A DNA stretch of 64,000 nt from Bacteroidia bacterium (lineage in GTDB: Bacteria; Bacteroidota; Bacteroidia; NS11-12g; UBA9320). The stretch lies in assembly GCA_018402155.1 (NCBI GenBank), contig JAGYJG010000001.1, positions 1,066,198-1,130,197 on the forward strand. Direction: 5' to 3'. Shown here piece after piece: positions 47,263 through 54,301 of the stretch. Numbering within the stretch: the first letter of the stretch is position 1; every line of letters begins with the position of its first letter. Made by a program: the position numbers and the translations under genes. The notes under the pieces were generated by a model that searched no databases, had not been told where the DNA came from, and saw only the letters and a list, made by a program, of their open reading frames with translations.

Positions 47263-48288
47263 CTACGGAAAAAAGAAAAAACCTGCGATGATTCCTGCTT
47301 CAAATTGGTCTAAAATTTCTCCATCTTTATCGTATCTCCGCACCACACTTCTACTCACAAAGTCCTTGCTATCAGAAACGTAAACATCTCCGTTTTGGGG
47401 ATTTACAGCTATAGCAAACAGTGCTGCATCGGGCACCTCTTGCCAAAGCCTAGGTGCTTTATCCACGCCTATTTCAAATCTATATACTCCGTCTGCCAAG
47501 TAGTATAGTACGTTTTGTTGGGCGTCGTAAGTGAGTGAGGTGGGTACTCCCTGCACTTCTATTGCCTCTACAGATGGCGAGGCTCCATTGGTACTGACCT
47601 TAGTGATTTTTGCTGCTTCATTTACGCTTTCGTCACCACGGCATAGCACCCAAAGATCGCCATCGATATCTTGTACTATGCTCTCTGGTTGTTGTCCCAC
47701 TTTTAGGCTATCTTGCAGATTGTTAGTCGTTGTATTTACACTAAAAATTTTACCGGTTTCTGGAGCTGTATACCAAAATCTATTGTTTAATATCACTCCT
47801 TTTTCTGCCCAATGATTGGTTTTTATTTGTGAAATTATTGTACCAGTTTTTATATCCACTACCCAAATTATGTTAGCATACAAATCGGTCATATAGCCTG
47901 TTTCGCTATCTTTTTGGTAAAAGTATCGCGGCGAGACAAAGCCATCGTTTCTGGATATCTCTACAAAATTAGTATCTGTCACCACTAGCCTTCCAGAGTT
48001 ATTTATGATTAAATAATACGTTTGGTTTACCTTAGTTATACTCTGAAACACATTTCCCAAAGATGCTGAGTTTGCTTGTTTAAAAACCTCGTGATCTATC
48101 GATTTGGTTTGTGGGTAATAGACCGATAATGTACCCTCTCCCCAACCAAAATTTCCTTGATTGGCAATGAGCACTTGGGCGCCCTCTGCCAAAGCAGGCA
48201 CTTCCAAGTTCTCGTCTGGTGCACACGCATTCAGTAACAACCCAAAACAACCTAGCAATACTAATATACAACTATTTTTTGTACCCAT
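47263..48288 (-). CDS. BtuG-like DUF5074 beta-propeller lipoprotein
   Basis: 342 residues from the ATG at 48288. Signal peptide ends L-N-A-C (Cys22), then a seven-bladed propeller of the YncE/DUF5074 type (starts VLIANQGNFGWGEGTLSVYYP; ends GEILDQFEAGIIAGFFFFP). In Bacteroides the related surface lipoprotein BtuG captures vitamin B12 and hands it to BtuB, and this one lies in a cobalamin-riboswitch operon with a BtuB-like receptor, so a role as the cobalamin-capturing partner is strongly suggested. It is last of the four genes and overlaps the previous gene by 28 bases. Confidence 0.85.
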   Translation of the reverse strand: MGTKNSCILVLLGCFGLLLNACAPDENLEVPALAEGAQVLIANQGNFGWGEGTLSVYYPQTKSIDHEVFKQANSASLGNVFQSITKVNQTYYLIINNSGRLVVTDTNFVEISRNDGFVSPRYFYQKDSETGYMTDLYANIIWVVDIKTGTIISQIKTNHWAEKGVILNNRFWYTAPETGKIFSVNTTTNNLQDSLKVGQQPESIVQDIDGDLWVLCRGDESVNEAAKITKVSTNGASPSVEAIEVQGVPTSLTYDAQQNVLYYLADGVYRFEIGVDKAPRLWQEVPDAALFAIAVNPQNGDVYVSDSKDFVSRSVVRRYDKDGEILDQFEAGIIAGFFFFP

Positions 48289-49208
48289 TGTTGATTTTGT
48301 TGGAGAATGGTAATAATGTATGTGCCCGGAGTGTAAAAACTGCAAGGTTGCTTAGAAAAAGGATGTACTATTTTGCCTTGAATATCGCGACTACTGATTA
48401 TAGCATCGGCCCATTCGACTTTTAATTTCAGGACCTCACCACGTGCCAAAGAATTGGTTACCAAAGGATTTGCTTTACTAAAGGTTTCAGGTGTAAATAC
48501 AGAAAGCATTGCACCATTAACAATGGCCACAGCATCTAAGTCGAAACCTCCGCTAGCAAAAGGCGTAGGAAATGGATCATTAATAATACGTCCTTTGCTA
48601 TCTCTGCTGCCAAACGAATCATTTACACTACCCACTACATCTATCAGCCTAATATATTTAACCTCTTCTAGCCCTACTTCTTCTAGGTCAAATAAGGTAC
48701 CATATGGCGCTTGGTGTTTTCCGGCTAGGTTACTAATTTTCTGAGGATCAGTGTAGCCAAAATTGTCTGTTTGAAAACTAGTATCGCTCAAACTTTCACT
48801 GGCAAAACGAACAAAATCAGTTCCGTTTTGGCTTACTTCTACGTGGGCTAGCTCTAGATAGTAGCTAAAACCAACTTGAAATCCATTTTCGAATACGGCA
48901 AAGTCGTAGCCCTCATTGTTTACAATCGGCTGGTCAAAAGTTAAGGTAATAACTCCTCCATCTCCCAAGCTCACCACTTCTCCATCAAAAACTCCTAGTG
49001 CACTACTCTCTGTACCTGTGGTTGGTTTGCCGGCGGAAGTATCATTAATTTGGGCATATCCACGGATTATAGTTGCACCGGTGGCCCACGCTAAAATGCT
49101 TGCATCGTCTTTGTGCACAGACTTACTACCTGGCTCACCTCCTGCTGAATCAAATTGTGCACTACTCACTAGCGATGCTAAAAGTACGGATAACGTAATA
49201 ATCCTCAT
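48261..49208 (-). CDS. T9SS-type cell-surface protein of the cobalamin operon
   Basis: 315 residues: signal peptide ending SSAQ, then a beta-sandwich-like domain starting FDSAGGEPGSKSVHKDD and containing LSDTSFQTDNFG and DVVGSVNDSFGSRDSKG, common to Bacteroidota 'cell surface proteins' found near TonB receptors. The last 60 residues (from VLKLKVEWADAIISSRDIQG to G-T-Y-I-I-T-I-L-Q ... KIVVY) look like a T9SS type A sorting domain. Third gene of the operon; its ATG overlaps the DUF4465 stop (ATGA). Ligand probably cobalamin or a corrinoid by context, not shown. Confidence 0.75.
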   Translation of the reverse strand: MRIITLSVLLASLVSSAQFDSAGGEPGSKSVHKDDASILAWATGATIIRGYAQINDTSAGKPTTGTESSALGVFDGEVVSLGDGGVITLTFDQPIVNNEGYDFAVFENGFQVGFSYYLELAHVEVSQNGTDFVRFASESLSDTSFQTDNFGYTDPQKISNLAGKHQAPYGTLFDLEEVGLEEVKYIRLIDVVGSVNDSFGSRDSKGRIINDPFPTPFASGGFDLDAVAIVNGAMLSVFTPETFSKANPLVTNSLARGEVLKLKVEWADAIISSRDIQGKIVHPFSKQPCSFYTPGTYIITILQQNQQWVQKIVVY

Positions 49209-50851
49209 TGTTTTATAAATTTCTTGGTGGCTATTCCTTTTTCTGATTGTACGCGCACAAAGTAAATACCAGGCGTCAAATTATGCGTATTAACTGAGGT
49301 GTTTTTGGATGTAATTATGTTTTTGGCTTCAGCTATCTGCTTTCCATCTATGCCAAACAAGGTAACTGTCTGGATATTTGTTTTGGTACTGATATACAAT
49401 TCATTATGAACTGGATTTGGAAAAATAAGGATACCAGCATCCTCTTTAGGTACTGAAATGTTCCCCATAATTCGTATTCCAATATCCAGACAAAAAAATG
49501 CAGGTGTATTCATTCCCCACATTCCATTATCAGATGATTCAAGTTTGAAAACCATTTTATGAAAATCTATTGAAAAATCCTTTGCATCGTAAATTACTGC
49601 AAAATCTTTTAAAATGTAGTCGTCAGCTGAATTTTCAAATCTATAATCTGCAAGATATACCGTATCTTGCCTAATCAGTTCGTTTTTACTATTCATAAAA
49701 CGTATAAGAAGCCTAAAGTAATCCGGATCTGTGCCATCTTTACCACCAAACTTTTTACTGAACGAACTACCATTGAGCATATCTAAGTACGCGTATGTTG
49801 AATTATTTACAGAAAAAATAAGGTCTTCGTTGTTTGTAGAAAAGGTGTTAGAATCTTCACCTAGATATACTGTTCTGATCTCATTTTGCGCTCCTCCTGC
49901 CACATAAAAGTGTGACGATCCGTCTATGCAACTGAACTGATTTTCAAATCCAGGAGTGCTATCGTCTTGCATTGTACTATATGACCATCCGCTCCAACTT
50001 TCCCACATCGAATTAAATTTATTTGCAAAATGATATGGGCCGGCTTGTATACCTCCGGCCATGTCTCTTCCATTGTAAAAAGTATCCATCGGCATCGTAA
50101 AAAATGGAGAATTGTAATTTGAAAGTTCTACTGACCCATTGAAATCATCCATGCAAAAATATTTGGGCGTATTGAGCCCAAATGAGCCCATATCACTTCC
50201 TTGGTAATGAAAACTAATACTATCTACCACAGCATCCTTTGGTAAATCGTTATTGAATTCTACAAATGTCCAATCCTTGATTATATAATCTTTACTATTA
50301 TCTTGGAATCTATAATCGGCCAAGTAAAAAACGGTGGTATCTATCAATTTACCAGCCAAATAAGAGCGAATAATTAAGCGCAGAAAATCGGGATCGTTCC
50401 CGCTATCTCCGCCAAATTTTTTACTAAACCCGCTGCCATTTTTCATGTCATAATAGGCGTAAGTAGTGTTGTTGAAATAGGCTCCTCTTATGGGTGAAGC
50501 TACATCCAATTTGATATAAGCCCCATCACCTGTACTCACCATATAGTTAGGGGTATGGCTGACGCCATGTCCAGATATGGCACTGTACTGATTGGTAAAT
50601 CCCTGTGTCACATTATCGGTCATATTGCTAAGCGCCCAGCCACTCCAACTGCTCCATATGTCATTGTAAGTATTGGCAAAAAGCCGCCCATAGTGAGTAA
50701 ATCCTTTATGGCCTGATACTCCATTGTCAAAAGTATCAGTCTTGGCAAGCGGCAAATTATCAAAGGTGGAATATACCGTTTCGTGATTTAATTGTGCCAA
50801 AAGGCTCTGAGCTATTGTAATAGCTAAAAGAGTTAGTTTTTTTCTTTTCAT
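49205..50851 (-). CDS. double DUF4465 protein with T9SS sorting domain
   Basis: 548 residues from the ATG at 50851 (MKRKKLTLLA). After a signal peptide (SLLAQ) come two tandem copies of DUF4465: copy 1 begins KTDTFDNG (about residue 40) with IWSSWSGWALSNM, and copy 2 begins PMDTFYNG (about 250) with MWESWSGWSYSTM; each ends in a similar YLADYRFxxxxxDYI-lKD segment and a CMDD or CLDI Cys. The C-terminus (about 470-548) has ILIFPNPVHN and ends G-I-Y-F-V-R-V ... KKFIKQ, a T9SS sorting domain. Start overlaps the receptor stop (ATGA). Confidence 0.88.
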   Translation of the reverse strand: MKRKKLTLLAITIAQSLLAQLNHETVYSTFDNLPLAKTDTFDNGVSGHKGFTHYGRLFANTYNDIWSSWSGWALSNMTDNVTQGFTNQYSAISGHGVSHTPNYMVSTGDGAYIKLDVASPIRGAYFNNTTYAYYDMKNGSGFSKKFGGDSGNDPDFLRLIIRSYLAGKLIDTTVFYLADYRFQDNSKDYIIKDWTFVEFNNDLPKDAVVDSISFHYQGSDMGSFGLNTPKYFCMDDFNGSVELSNYNSPFFTMPMDTFYNGRDMAGGIQAGPYHFANKFNSMWESWSGWSYSTMQDDSTPGFENQFSCIDGSSHFYVAGGAQNEIRTVYLGEDSNTFSTNNEDLIFSVNNSTYAYLDMLNGSSFSKKFGGKDGTDPDYFRLLIRFMNSKNELIRQDTVYLADYRFENSADDYILKDFAVIYDAKDFSIDFHKMVFKLESSDNGMWGMNTPAFFCLDIGIRIMGNISVPKEDAGILIFPNPVHNELYISTKTNIQTVTLFGIDGKQIAEAKNIITSKNTSVNTHNLTPGIYFVRVQSEKGIATKKFIKQ

Positions 50852-52731
50852 GATTTTAAGGGTATGGTATAATTTAAATTTATTTTGATTACACGTCCAG
50901 GAATTGGGGTACGCGGCTGCGTGTAATAAGTTGTATTCGCAAGGTTCGCAGCAACAGCTCCTATACGCCATTTTTTAACTGTATAAAAACCGCCAGCTTC
51001 TAGCAACAAATAAGGTGATAGATACTCCCTATTGTCGCTAGCAGTAAAATTGTAACCGACATACTGCTGGTTGATGTATAAACTAAAGTGTTCGGTAATG
51101 ATAGTAAGTGTGCTGTTTTGAGTGATACTTGGCGTAAAAATAAGCTGCTTACCATTTCTGCTGTCTTCACGTACATACCTGTATGTAGCGCTCACCCCAT
51201 GCACGTTTGCTTGTGCTACAAGTTTCATTTTGCTGAATGTAGCAGTGTAAGAAGCGTCCCATACAGCGCCTAACACGTTTACATGTGCTAAATTTTCGGG
51301 TCTTATTTCGGGAAATCCCGACCATTGAATCCAGTTGGTATAGGTAGCAATATGCGGATTTATACTTAATTTAAATTTTTCAATTTCATATTTCAGTGTT
51401 ACGTCTGCCCGGTATCCTTGCTCTGGCTGTAAGTCTGCCCTACCACGTGCTGTACCCGGTTGATACCAAAATAGCTCATTAAGTACGGGCAGCCTAAATA
51501 CCTTACGAACACTAGCTATGACACTGTACTCTTTGGTGAGTGCCCTGTGCAAATTCAGAGATGCGTTGGTCACCCATCTATTATCGAAATAAATAGCAGT
51601 TTGATGATATGCTAATTTTCCATATTTAAATATTTTGGATACGTTCATTTGCGGCAGCCAGCGATTCCAAGTAGCATTTTCTTTTAGCGCCTCAGAGGTA
51701 TAGTTTGCATGATTATTAGCTATAGCCAAACTAAGAGAATACCCTTTTTTGAAATAGCCCGTACCATTGAGCGTAGTATTAGTATTAAAAACGGAACTAT
51801 TAGTAGCAATACCTCGAGGCACATCCTCAAAACCAATGTCTTCTTGCCATAGCTGATTGTCCAAGTTTAACACCCACCTAGCACCAATTTTCCACTGTAG
51901 AGTATTTACAGCCATAGCATTTTTGTCTGTTTGTTTAGCCTCTCCTACTTGACCCAAGGCAGGTGGTATTCCTCTATTAGCAGCTTGTAGGTAAACCGTA
52001 TTTTTCCACACCAACTTCGAATTTATGTCATAGCGTATTGTTTGTATAACACTCCATCTTTCAAAGTCTGTATTAGTCTGTAGGCTGTCCAAAAAACCAT
52101 ATCTACCCAAACCAATGAGATTGGGAGAAATGGCTGAAACTGCACTTATAGCGTAGTTTAAACGTTTTATCCGCTTGGCGTAATTGATATACGTATTTTT
52201 TTCGCCAAGAGTACTACCACCTATCGTAGCAGATAGGTTTGATGTAGCACTAGGGCTTTCTAGAACTATAGCAGCCCCAGCATTTACCATGCCGACGATA
52301 GGCTCAGTTTCGGTGTCAATAGTCAACTTACTAAAATGTGCAGCACCTAGTAAACTGAGGTCAAAACTTCCATTCATGCTGCTTTGAATATTGGCACCAT
52401 TGAGCACTATTGGAGTGTGCATAGAGCCTAGCCCCTTGTATGATAGTGTACTAAGCGAACCAGCTCCTCCACTACGTATAAAAATACCACTTTGCTTTTG
52501 AAGTAACTCAGAGAGATTCATAGCTGGATTGGCTTTTAATAGGGTTTCAGATACTAGTTGCCTGCTTGTCAATGTTTTTGGAGAAAATACTACCACAGAG
52601 TCCAAATGCTCTGGTAGTGCAAGAGGTGCAGCATTTGTATTAATAGGAAAATATGAGACACTATCATTCACCTGAGTATACCCCAGCATTTGGAGCAAGC
52701 AAATAGATATAGTAGCGAGCGCTATTTTCAA
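50848..52731 (-). CDS. btuB: TonB-dependent receptor, BtuB-like (cobalamin)
   Basis: About 627 residues from a TTG at 52731 that begins a signal peptide (K-I-A-L-A-T-I-S-I-C-L-L-Q-M-L-G-Y-T-Q). The plug domain holds VVVFSPKTLTSRQLV and LNGANIQSS; a C-terminal barrel ends PRTPIPGRVIKINLNYTI. This resembles BtuB and siderophore receptors. An ATG at 52986 is rejected: it is inside the riboswitch and would add 85 unlikely residues, and the terminator hairpin (52780-52831) lies between it and 52731. The riboswitch predicts repression by adenosylcobalamin. No TonB box was picked out. Confidence 0.85.
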   Translation of the reverse strand: MKIALATISICLLQMLGYTQVNDSVSYFPINTNAAPLALPEHLDSVVVFSPKTLTSRQLVSETLLKANPAMNLSELLQKQSGIFIRSGGAGSLSTLSYKGLGSMHTPIVLNGANIQSSMNGSFDLSLLGAAHFSKLTIDTETEPIVGMVNAGAAIVLESPSATSNLSATIGGSTLGEKNTYINYAKRIKRLNYAISAVSAISPNLIGLGRYGFLDSLQTNTDFERWSVIQTIRYDINSKLVWKNTVYLQAANRGIPPALGQVGEAKQTDKNAMAVNTLQWKIGARWVLNLDNQLWQEDIGFEDVPRGIATNSSVFNTNTTLNGTGYFKKGYSLSLAIANNHANYTSEALKENATWNRWLPQMNVSKIFKYGKLAYHQTAIYFDNRWVTNASLNLHRALTKEYSVIASVRKVFRLPVLNELFWYQPGTARGRADLQPEQGYRADVTLKYEIEKFKLSINPHIATYTNWIQWSGFPEIRPENLAHVNVLGAVWDASYTATFSKMKLVAQANVHGVSATYRYVREDSRNGKQLIFTPSITQNSTLTIITEHFSLYINQQYVGYNFTASDNREYLSPYLLLEAGGFYTVKKWRIGAVAANLANTTYYTQPRTPIPGRVIKINLNYTIPLKS

Positions 52732-52779
52732 TGCATTAGCATAATTAAAACTGCAACAAACAGAGCAGCATCGGAGTAT

Positions 52780-52831
52780 AAAAAGACAAGAAAAGCAGAC
52801 GCAAGCGTATGAATCTCCAATCGCTTTTCTT
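52780..52831 (-). terminator. terminator-like hairpin after the cobalamin riboswitch
   Basis: On the minus strand, arms AAGAAAAGC (52831-52823) and GCTTTTCTT (52796-52788) form a 9-bp stem followed by GTCTTTTT (52787-52780). This lies between the aptamer and the btuB TTG start (52731), so it could be the expression platform of a transcriptional riboswitch. The loop of 26 nt can form an inner hairpin (ACGC-AA-GCGT on the plus strand). Confidence 0.5.
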
Positions 52832-52854
52832 CCCGAAAGCATACTGAGTATAAT

Positions 52855-53022
52855 TGGCATAAGCAGGTCTTCTGACTTAGTTCCTAGTGTTGTAGTCCTT
52901 CCCACTCGCCGCAGCGAGCAGTGGATAGATGATAAACACACTATTAACAGAACAATACAGCTGCGGGTACAGTGGAGGTTTTTCACCTCTCTTCCCTTAA
53001 CTTTGCACGTGCAATAGTAGGC
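52855..53022 (-). ncRNA. cobalamin (B12) riboswitch
   Basis: Reading on the minus strand: GGGAAGAGAGGTGAAAAACC, then CCCGCAGCTG, then a central GGGAAGG segment, and finally AGAAGACCTGCTT. These are the conserved segments of the cobalamin aptamer in the right order and at normal spacing (about 170 nt). Boundaries are approximate because P1 is not resolved. It controls the four-gene operon downstream: with adenosylcobalamin bound, expression of the receptor genes is expected to fall. Confidence 0.95.
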
Positions 53023-53116
53023 AAAAAAAATATGACAAAATACAGTGTGGAAATATCGTCTATTTTATGATTATTTGCATTGCTATTTTAATTTAGTCTA
53101 AATAAATAAAAACATT

Positions 53117-53695
53117 ATGATACGAGAACGCATTAAAACAGAAACTGCTAAACATCACGAGGCTGTAGAAGCCGTAGGATACAGTGGCCAAATAATGAGT
53201 GGTAAACTGACTTTAGAAGAGTATAAAAAACTTATTATCACAAATCTGGCACTCAATAAAGCATTTGAAGCACAATGGAACAATCTTCCATTCGATGTAC
53301 CAAATTCCCTACTCCTAGATCAACGTCGAAAAACAGAAGCTTTAGAAAAAGATGCAACAATACTTGGTGTATCCATACCCGAAAAAAATAGTACTTCATT
53401 CCCAACTTCCTCATATGCTACATTTTTGGGTACGTTATATGTTTTTGAGGGTAGTACACTTGGAGGTGCCATTATTTACAAGCATCTTAAACAAAACACA
53501 AACCTTAAGCATATAAAAGATTTTTATTTTTATACTTGCTATGGTGAGAGCTTGGGCAGCTTGTGGAAAGTTTTTTTAGAGCACCTTACACAATTAGAAG
53601 ATGAAGAGCAAATAGATTCAGCAATATCTGCTGCGAAAGCCACTTTTGATCAAACAAAAGATGCTTTTTCCACAATAAATGAAAATGCTTTGTAA
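53117..53695 (+). CDS. heme oxygenase (biliverdin-producing)
   Basis: Cleaves heme to biliverdin, iron and CO. 192 residues, the usual length; proximal His in ETAKHHEAVE (about 14-15) and the distal helix LYVFEGSTLGGAIIYKHL, typical of bacterial heme oxygenases. It is divergent from the cobalamin operon. Iron recovery from heme or biliverdin supply to a phytochrome are both possible; no phytochrome or heme-uptake genes are adjacent. Confidence 0.92.
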   Translation: MIRERIKTETAKHHEAVEAVGYSGQIMSGKLTLEEYKKLIITNLALNKAFEAQWNNLPFDVPNSLLLDQRRKTEALEKDATILGVSIPEKNSTSFPTSSYATFLGTLYVFEGSTLGGAIIYKHLKQNTNLKHIKDFYFYTCYGESLGSLWKVFLEHLTQLEDEEQIDSAISAAKATFDQTKDAFSTINENAL

Positions 53696-53727
53696 TTTCT
53701 TTTTAGAAAAAGTACAAACTACTACAA

Positions 53728-53735
53728 TATATTTG
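53728..53735 (+). promoter_or_regulatory. -7 promoter box of efp
   Basis: Plus-strand TATATTTG, exact TAnnTTTG match, ends five bases before the ATG at 53741. The mRNA should be leaderless or have only a base or so before the ATG. Confidence 0.55.
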
Positions 53736-53740
53736 CGTCG

Positions 53741-54301
53741 ATGGCAACAACACAAGACTTATCAAGAGGTATGTTTCTACGATATAATGGCCAATTGTGC
53801 CAAGTAGTAGACTACCAGCATACCATGCCTGGTAAAGGCGGAGCTTTTTATCAAGTAAAAATGAAAAATGCAATCACCGGTAAATCTATTGAAAATAGAT
53901 TTAGAAGCGGCGAAACCATTGAGGATGTCCGCGTAGAACTTATAGAAATGCAATATTTATACAAAGATGGCAACAATTTAGTTCTCATGAATACAGAAAC
54001 CTATGAGCAAGTGGCTATACCCGAAACTATGATAGGAGACCAAATGAAATTTATCAAAGAAGAGATGATACTCAGCATATATTTTGATGAAGGAAATCCC
54101 ATAATGGCAGATGCCCCAAACCACGTTGTTTTAGAAATAACTTATAGTGAGCCAGGCGTAAAAGGAGACACCGCAAACAATCCTCTAAAACCAGCCACTT
54201 TAGAAACTGGGGCTATCGTGAATGTACCTCTTTTTGTAGACAGTGGCGAAAAAATAAAAGTAGATACACGCACCGGCGAATACGTAGAGCGAGTGCGTTA
54301 A
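53741..54301 (+). CDS. efp: translation elongation factor P
   Basis: Rescues ribosomes stalled on polyproline. 186 residues, full length, with domains: KOW-like N-terminal (DLSRGMFLRYNGQLCQVV), the loop bearing the tip residue Lys32 (MPGKGGAF), OB domain (LIEMQYLYKDGNNLVLMN) and C-terminal OB domain (GAIVNVPLFVDSGEKIKVDTRTGEYVERV). Gly-Lys-Gly-Gly at the tip resembles EF-Ps modified at Lys; modification here is not shown. Immediately follows heme oxygenase but has its own promoter box. Confidence 0.97.
   Translation: MATTQDLSRGMFLRYNGQLCQVVDYQHTMPGKGGAFYQVKMKNAITGKSIENRFRSGETIEDVRVELIEMQYLYKDGNNLVLMNTETYEQVAIPETMIGDQMKFIKEEMILSIYFDEGNPIMADAPNHVVLEITYSEPGVKGDTANNPLKPATLETGAIVNVPLFVDSGEKIKVDTRTGEYVERVR

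Follow-up and report, generated by a model that had tools for sequence, protein, structure and literature searches.

Organization of the locus

We analysed a window of 64,000 nucleotides from the genome of Bacteroidia bacterium GCA_018402155.1 (contig JAGYJG010000001.1); positions are those of this window unless a locus of another genome is named. The window carries a B12-riboswitch operon of four overlapping genes, all on the minus strand, with the following features.

52845-53048, minus strand: cobalamin riboswitch RF00174 (70.2 bits; gathering score 31.5)
50848-52842, minus strand: BtuB-like TonB-dependent receptor (Plug domain and PDB matches to B12 transporters)
49205-50851, minus strand: tandem DUF4465 (BtuJ-type) protein with a T9SS tail (Pfam, TIGR04183 and PDB matches)
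50141-50656, minus strand: DUF4465 domain 1 (147 bits; HI-loop motif NTPKY)
49484-50008, minus strand: DUF4465 domain 2 (114 bits; HI-loop motif NTPAF, with Phe for Tyr)
49208-49426, minus strand: T9SS type-A C-terminal sorting domain of the DUF4465 protein (TIGR04183, 53.3 bits, cut-off 23; Pfam Por_Secre_tail, 51 bits)
48261-49208, minus strand: P2, predicted surface protein with a BtuH-like domain and a T9SS-type tail (AlphaFold2 model, family profile)
48510-49154, minus strand: predicted BtuH-like domain of P2 (AlphaFold2 pLDDT mostly above 94; match to 7biz, Z 13.1)
48264-48473, minus strand: putative T9SS type-A-like tail of P2 (fold match to 8glk_D; TIGR04183 matches in the family)
47263-48288, minus strand: BtuG-family seven-bladed propeller lipoprotein (DUF5074, 70.8 bits; PDB match to BtuG)

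An earlier note on this DNA had described a B12 riboswitch followed by four genes joined by two ATGA overlaps and one 28-base overlap, and this gene set was found. The ATGA overlaps lie at 50848-50851 (receptor and DUF4465 genes) and 49205-49208 (DUF4465 gene and P2), and the 28-base overlap at 48261-48288 (P2 and the BtuG gene). The riboswitch is the sole copy of RF00174 in the whole 2.49 Mb genome. The first ATG past it is at 52842, the exact start of the receptor gene being uncertain, and the receptor stop is at 50848. A heme-oxygenase-family gene (53117-53695) and then a gene reading as elongation factor P occupy 53117-54301, both divergent from the operon.

The receptor and the BtuG-family lipoprotein

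The receptor contains a TonB Plug domain (38 bits with Pfam). Its score against TIGR01779, the BtuB equivalog (TonB-B12), was 38.2 bits where the cut-off is 599.7 bits, and we therefore name it BtuB-like only, on the basis of its operon context and of a comparison with PDB sequences, in which every match was a B12 transporter (8bmx_C at the top, E = 5e-13). The closest solved relatives of the propeller protein are the BtuG proteins of Bacteroides (8p97_B, E = 6e-43), and it has a lipobox, LLNA-Cys22. Judged by its sequence, the last gene of the operon is a BtuG. The proposed pairing of a BtuB-like receptor with a BtuG-like DUF5074 lipoprotein propeller in one riboswitch operon is upheld.

The tandem DUF4465 protein

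The second gene encodes two DUF4465 domains (247 bits overall with Pfam) behind a Sec signal without a lipobox. Its C-terminal sorting domain was called above cut-off by the profile search, so that the double DUF4465 protein with a sorting domain stands as it had been described from the sequence. DUF4465 is the BtuJ family. B12 binding has been demonstrated for eight distant members, one of which comes from Fluviicola taffensis (PMC13398666), and BtuJ1 and BtuJ2 of B. thetaiotaomicron bind B12 very tightly (PMC12751083). Comparison with the PDB gave matches to the B12-binding proteins 9hmu (E = 3e-19) and 9i2l (E = 9e-9). The conserved tyrosine of the HI-loop motif NTPxY is kept in domain 1 and is a phenylalanine in domain 2, as it is in about one fifth of related domains.

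P2, a BtuH-like protein

The third protein, P2, has a Sec signal without a lipobox and matched no Pfam family. It belongs to a large family, with at least 552 relatives in the genome collection, and the family is strongly conserved, 44 columns being invariant among 20 sequences. The AlphaFold2 model of P2, made from 71 sequences, has a mean pLDDT of 90.9. The best solved match to the fold of the modelled N-terminal domain is the B12-binding domain of BtuH2 (7biz; Z 13.1, 2.7 A, 153 residues, 19% identity), the next is the BtuH domain of BtuG1 (8blw_B, Z 11.7), and CBM32 domains follow at 10 or below. The sequence profiles point to the same family: the broad P2 profile matched a single chain among the PDB sequences, residues 395-497 of 8blw_B, which are the BtuH domain of BtuG1 (E = 1.6e-5), and hhalign aligned P2 with the BtuH relatives collected here over 59 columns (95.5%, E = 1.4e-8). 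By profile and by model, P2 is thus a short BtuH-like protein, distant from BtuH itself.

Eight B12-contact residues have been reported for BtuH2, of which Asn399 and Phe401 contact the phosphate and the lower ligand of B12 (PMC8941943). In the hhalign alignment these two residues align with an invariant and a nearly invariant residue of P2, while the other six, including the corrin-contacting Trp, Tyr and His, had no alignable counterpart in P2. From the modelled fold and the profile matches, P2 likely binds B12.

It could instead be that P2 belongs to the B12 regulon as a carbohydrate-binding-like or structural surface protein that does not bind B12, and that only the DUF4465 protein captures the vitamin. 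The galactose-binding-like fold of P2 is common to CBM32 domains (Z about 9-10), and six of the eight BtuH2 contact residues are those just named as unalignable. There is also a precedent in BtuL, an accessory lipoprotein of the B12 loci of Bacteroides which does not bind B12 and promotes vesicle release (PMC12751083), so that membership of such a locus is by itself no proof of binding. However, both BtuH2 and the H domain of BtuG1 outrank every CBM in the fold match, and the sequence profiles tie P2 to the BtuH family only. We consider a non-binding P2 rather unlikely and keep B12 binding as the preferred reading.

An apparent match of the DUF4465 profile to P2 proteins most likely arose from contamination of that profile through the T9SS tails which both kinds of protein carry, and the DUF4465 profile used for the locus scan was rebuilt with these tails cut off. 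We also noted that 21 of the 71 members of the P2 family match NF033170 (LIC_13355 lipoprotein family), and that family may be related to the P2 domain as a lipoprotein version of it.

C-terminal tails of the putative capture proteins

In the T9SS, PorV collects type-A tails and PorU processes them, after which the protein is attached to A-LPS or set free (PMC12618676); the sortase PorU is encoded in this genome (NF033707, 1173 bits). The tail of the window copy of P2 scored 14.4-16.1 bits against TIGR04183 over its last 25 or so residues, below the cut-off of 23, and was not called by Pfam. In the P2 family, TIGR04183 matched 63 of the 71 members at E ≤ 0.001, and the modelled tail of the window copy (residues 228-297) matched the T9SS domain of NucA (8glk_D; Z 8.2, 2.0 A, 68 residues). 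The sorting domain which the earlier note had assigned to P2 is therefore backed by its family and its predicted fold and is missed by the single-sequence HMM; on these grounds the tail is probably of the T9SS type.

Recurrence of the arrangement in related loci

The named genome collection was scanned for P2, and we examined the best 80 loci. In 61 of them, the receptor, BtuG and/or DUF4465 profiles matched on the same strand no more than 7 kb away, and the gene order receptor - DUF4465 - P2 - BtuG repeats in genomes of the same family; because the same order recurs in relatives, the arrangement is not due to chance. A strong cobalamin riboswitch match was present at 51 of the 80 loci, where about 0.4 would be expected if each genome is assumed to have one riboswitch. 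This count was made with the covariance model, since a search by text pattern recovered just three of eight known riboswitches besides that of the window; the model gave 52 loci, from which L095 was left out, its match of 37 bits being unconfirmed by Rfam.

Several loci depart from this order. P2 and DUF4465 are fused in one frame at some of them (for example L163, L166 and L169). In a sister family (L048-L060 and L201-L204), the riboswitch operon retains the receptor, a T9SS-tailed DUF4465 protein and BtuG, and in several of its genomes P2 lies away from this operon, alone and with no riboswitch nearby. In a MAG titled Chthonomonas, a name belonging to another phylum, a DUF4465-P2 pair joined by an ATGA overlap (L095:7150-8744) carries PEP-CTERM-like tails on both proteins, so that the pair is kept while its anchor differs. 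Two very long open frames were also seen, one of 2613 aa containing a DUF4465 domain (L137:1-7842) and one of about 1078 aa containing a P2 domain (L117:5673-8909). The genomes in which P2 stands alone speak for a P2 without B12 binding; the linkage to the riboswitch, together with the strong conservation of the family, speaks against it.

Comparison of the proteins at the 51 riboswitch-bearing loci showed that T9SS-like tails are present in 25 of the 27 DUF4465 neighbours and in none of the 51 BtuG proteins, 44 of which have a lipobox-like motif. The Fisher test of the DUF4465 and BtuG tails gave P = 2e-18, which serves just as a guide because the sequences are related. These counts support a general rule for related loci, at the level of sequence, by which BtuG is a lipoprotein while the BtuJ and BtuH-like proteins are T9SS-tailed. 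The tails, the PorU gene and this same split in related loci also favour the claim of the earlier note that the accessory proteins are routed through the T9SS and are not lipoproteins.

The tails could be non-functional as T9SS signals here, which would leave both proteins in the periplasm, and the score of the P2 tail of the window, 14-16 bits with a cut-off of 23, agrees with that. Such an outcome is hard to reconcile with the 53 bits of the DUF4465 tail, with an encoded PorU, with tails that are kept across the family and never occur in the BtuG neighbours, and with a predicted fold of the P2 tail that matches a T9SS cargo domain; we regard it as very unlikely, and T9SS export of both proteins as the better reading.

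The divergent heme-oxygenase-family gene next door could suggest that the operon serves another tetrapyrrole or a metal ligand and that the riboswitch does no more than link it to cobalamin status. This is extremely improbable, given that each of the four genes has relatives in B12-specific families and that the four-part association recurs with cobalamin riboswitches.

Proposed function of the operon

The operon is in effect btuB - btuJJ - btuH-like - btuG, and we hold with considerable confidence, as one explanation taken whole, that it is a cobalamin-scavenging outer-membrane operon with T9SS-exported capture proteins. When B12 is low in the cell, the riboswitch would permit expression of the operon, as expected from its riboswitch family. 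The barrel of the BtuB-like receptor would pair with the lipid-anchored BtuG propeller as a gated transporter whose lid is BtuG, in the manner of the 'pedal bin' by which BtuB with a BtuG lid imports B12 (PMC10404256). The tandem DUF4465 protein and P2 would be exported by Sec and then by the T9SS through their C-terminal tails, and would end up either on the cell surface, attached there by PorU, or free outside the cell. Once exported they would bind B12 tightly and hand it over to BtuG-BtuB. The riboswitch, the order of the genes, their family and fold membership, the T9SS tails, the PorU gene and the recurrence of the design were observed, and we infer B12 binding by the window copies, their secretion and the handover. 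Points that weigh against this explanation are the few BtuH2 contact residues alignable in P2, the BtuL precedent, the low score of the P2 tail, the genomes in which P2 is detached from the riboswitch operon, the Phe in domain 2 of the DUF4465 protein and the lack of a recognised BtuC-type permease.

If T9SS export ends with cleavage and release of the BtuJ-type and BtuH-type proteins, these might act as diffusible 'cobalophores', collecting B12 at a distance from the cell and bringing it back to BtuG-BtuB, a counterpart of the vesicle-borne BtuJ of B. thetaiotaomicron; we put this forward as a tentative and somewhat doubtful extension.

The genome encodes MetH and two mutase-type B12 proteins, and therefore has a demand for B12. 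Among its proteins none was recognised as a BtuC-type permease; FecCD matches considered as BtuC were rejected since the proteins read as metal ABC permeases. L035, considered as a B12 enzyme, was likewise rejected and reads as an IMP dehydrogenase.

Comparison with known systems

Like the operon described here, the B12 uptake loci of B. thetaiotaomicron (PMC6143338, PMC8941943, PMC10404256, PMC12751083) combine in a single operon a cobalamin riboswitch with a BtuB-type receptor, a BtuG lipoprotein of the propeller type, DUF4465 (BtuJ) and a domain of the BtuH type. They differ in that the BtuJ- and BtuH-type proteins are lipid-anchored there, whereas those described here have lipobox-free Sec signals and T9SS type-A tails. 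In addition, the DUF4465 domain is in tandem here, the BtuH-like protein is without the N-terminal Ig-like domains of BtuH, and the operon does not include btuFCD. A survey of the DUF4465 family (PMC13398666) reported B12 binding across the family, including the Fluviicola protein, and found that plug domains and PF16819 propellers are statistically co-located with it; its text mentions neither T9SS or sorting domains nor P2.

The sorting domain of the capture proteins belongs to the same family as that of T9SS type-A cargo (TIGR04183), and PorU is encoded here, but the type-A cargo in the literature that we found consists of proteases, hydrolases and adhesins. In the open-licence literature searched we found no B12-binding T9SS cargo, no T9SS link for BtuJ or BtuH, no account of how general such a route is and no BtuH-like identity for P2. 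The parts of the operon are of known kinds and the predicted T9SS route of the capture proteins is new with respect to that literature, in keeping with the earlier view that a B12-capture system built with T9SS proteins is a variant of the known one.

B12 capture would thereby be added to the jobs of the T9SS, and the large, unnamed P2 family gains a likely function. In gut Bacteroides, surface capture of B12 is known to be the work of lipoproteins; at this locus the capture proteins would be routed through the T9SS while the lid is still a lipoprotein. Many environmental Bacteroidota show the same split, and one MAG whose title names another phylum has a PEP-CTERM version.
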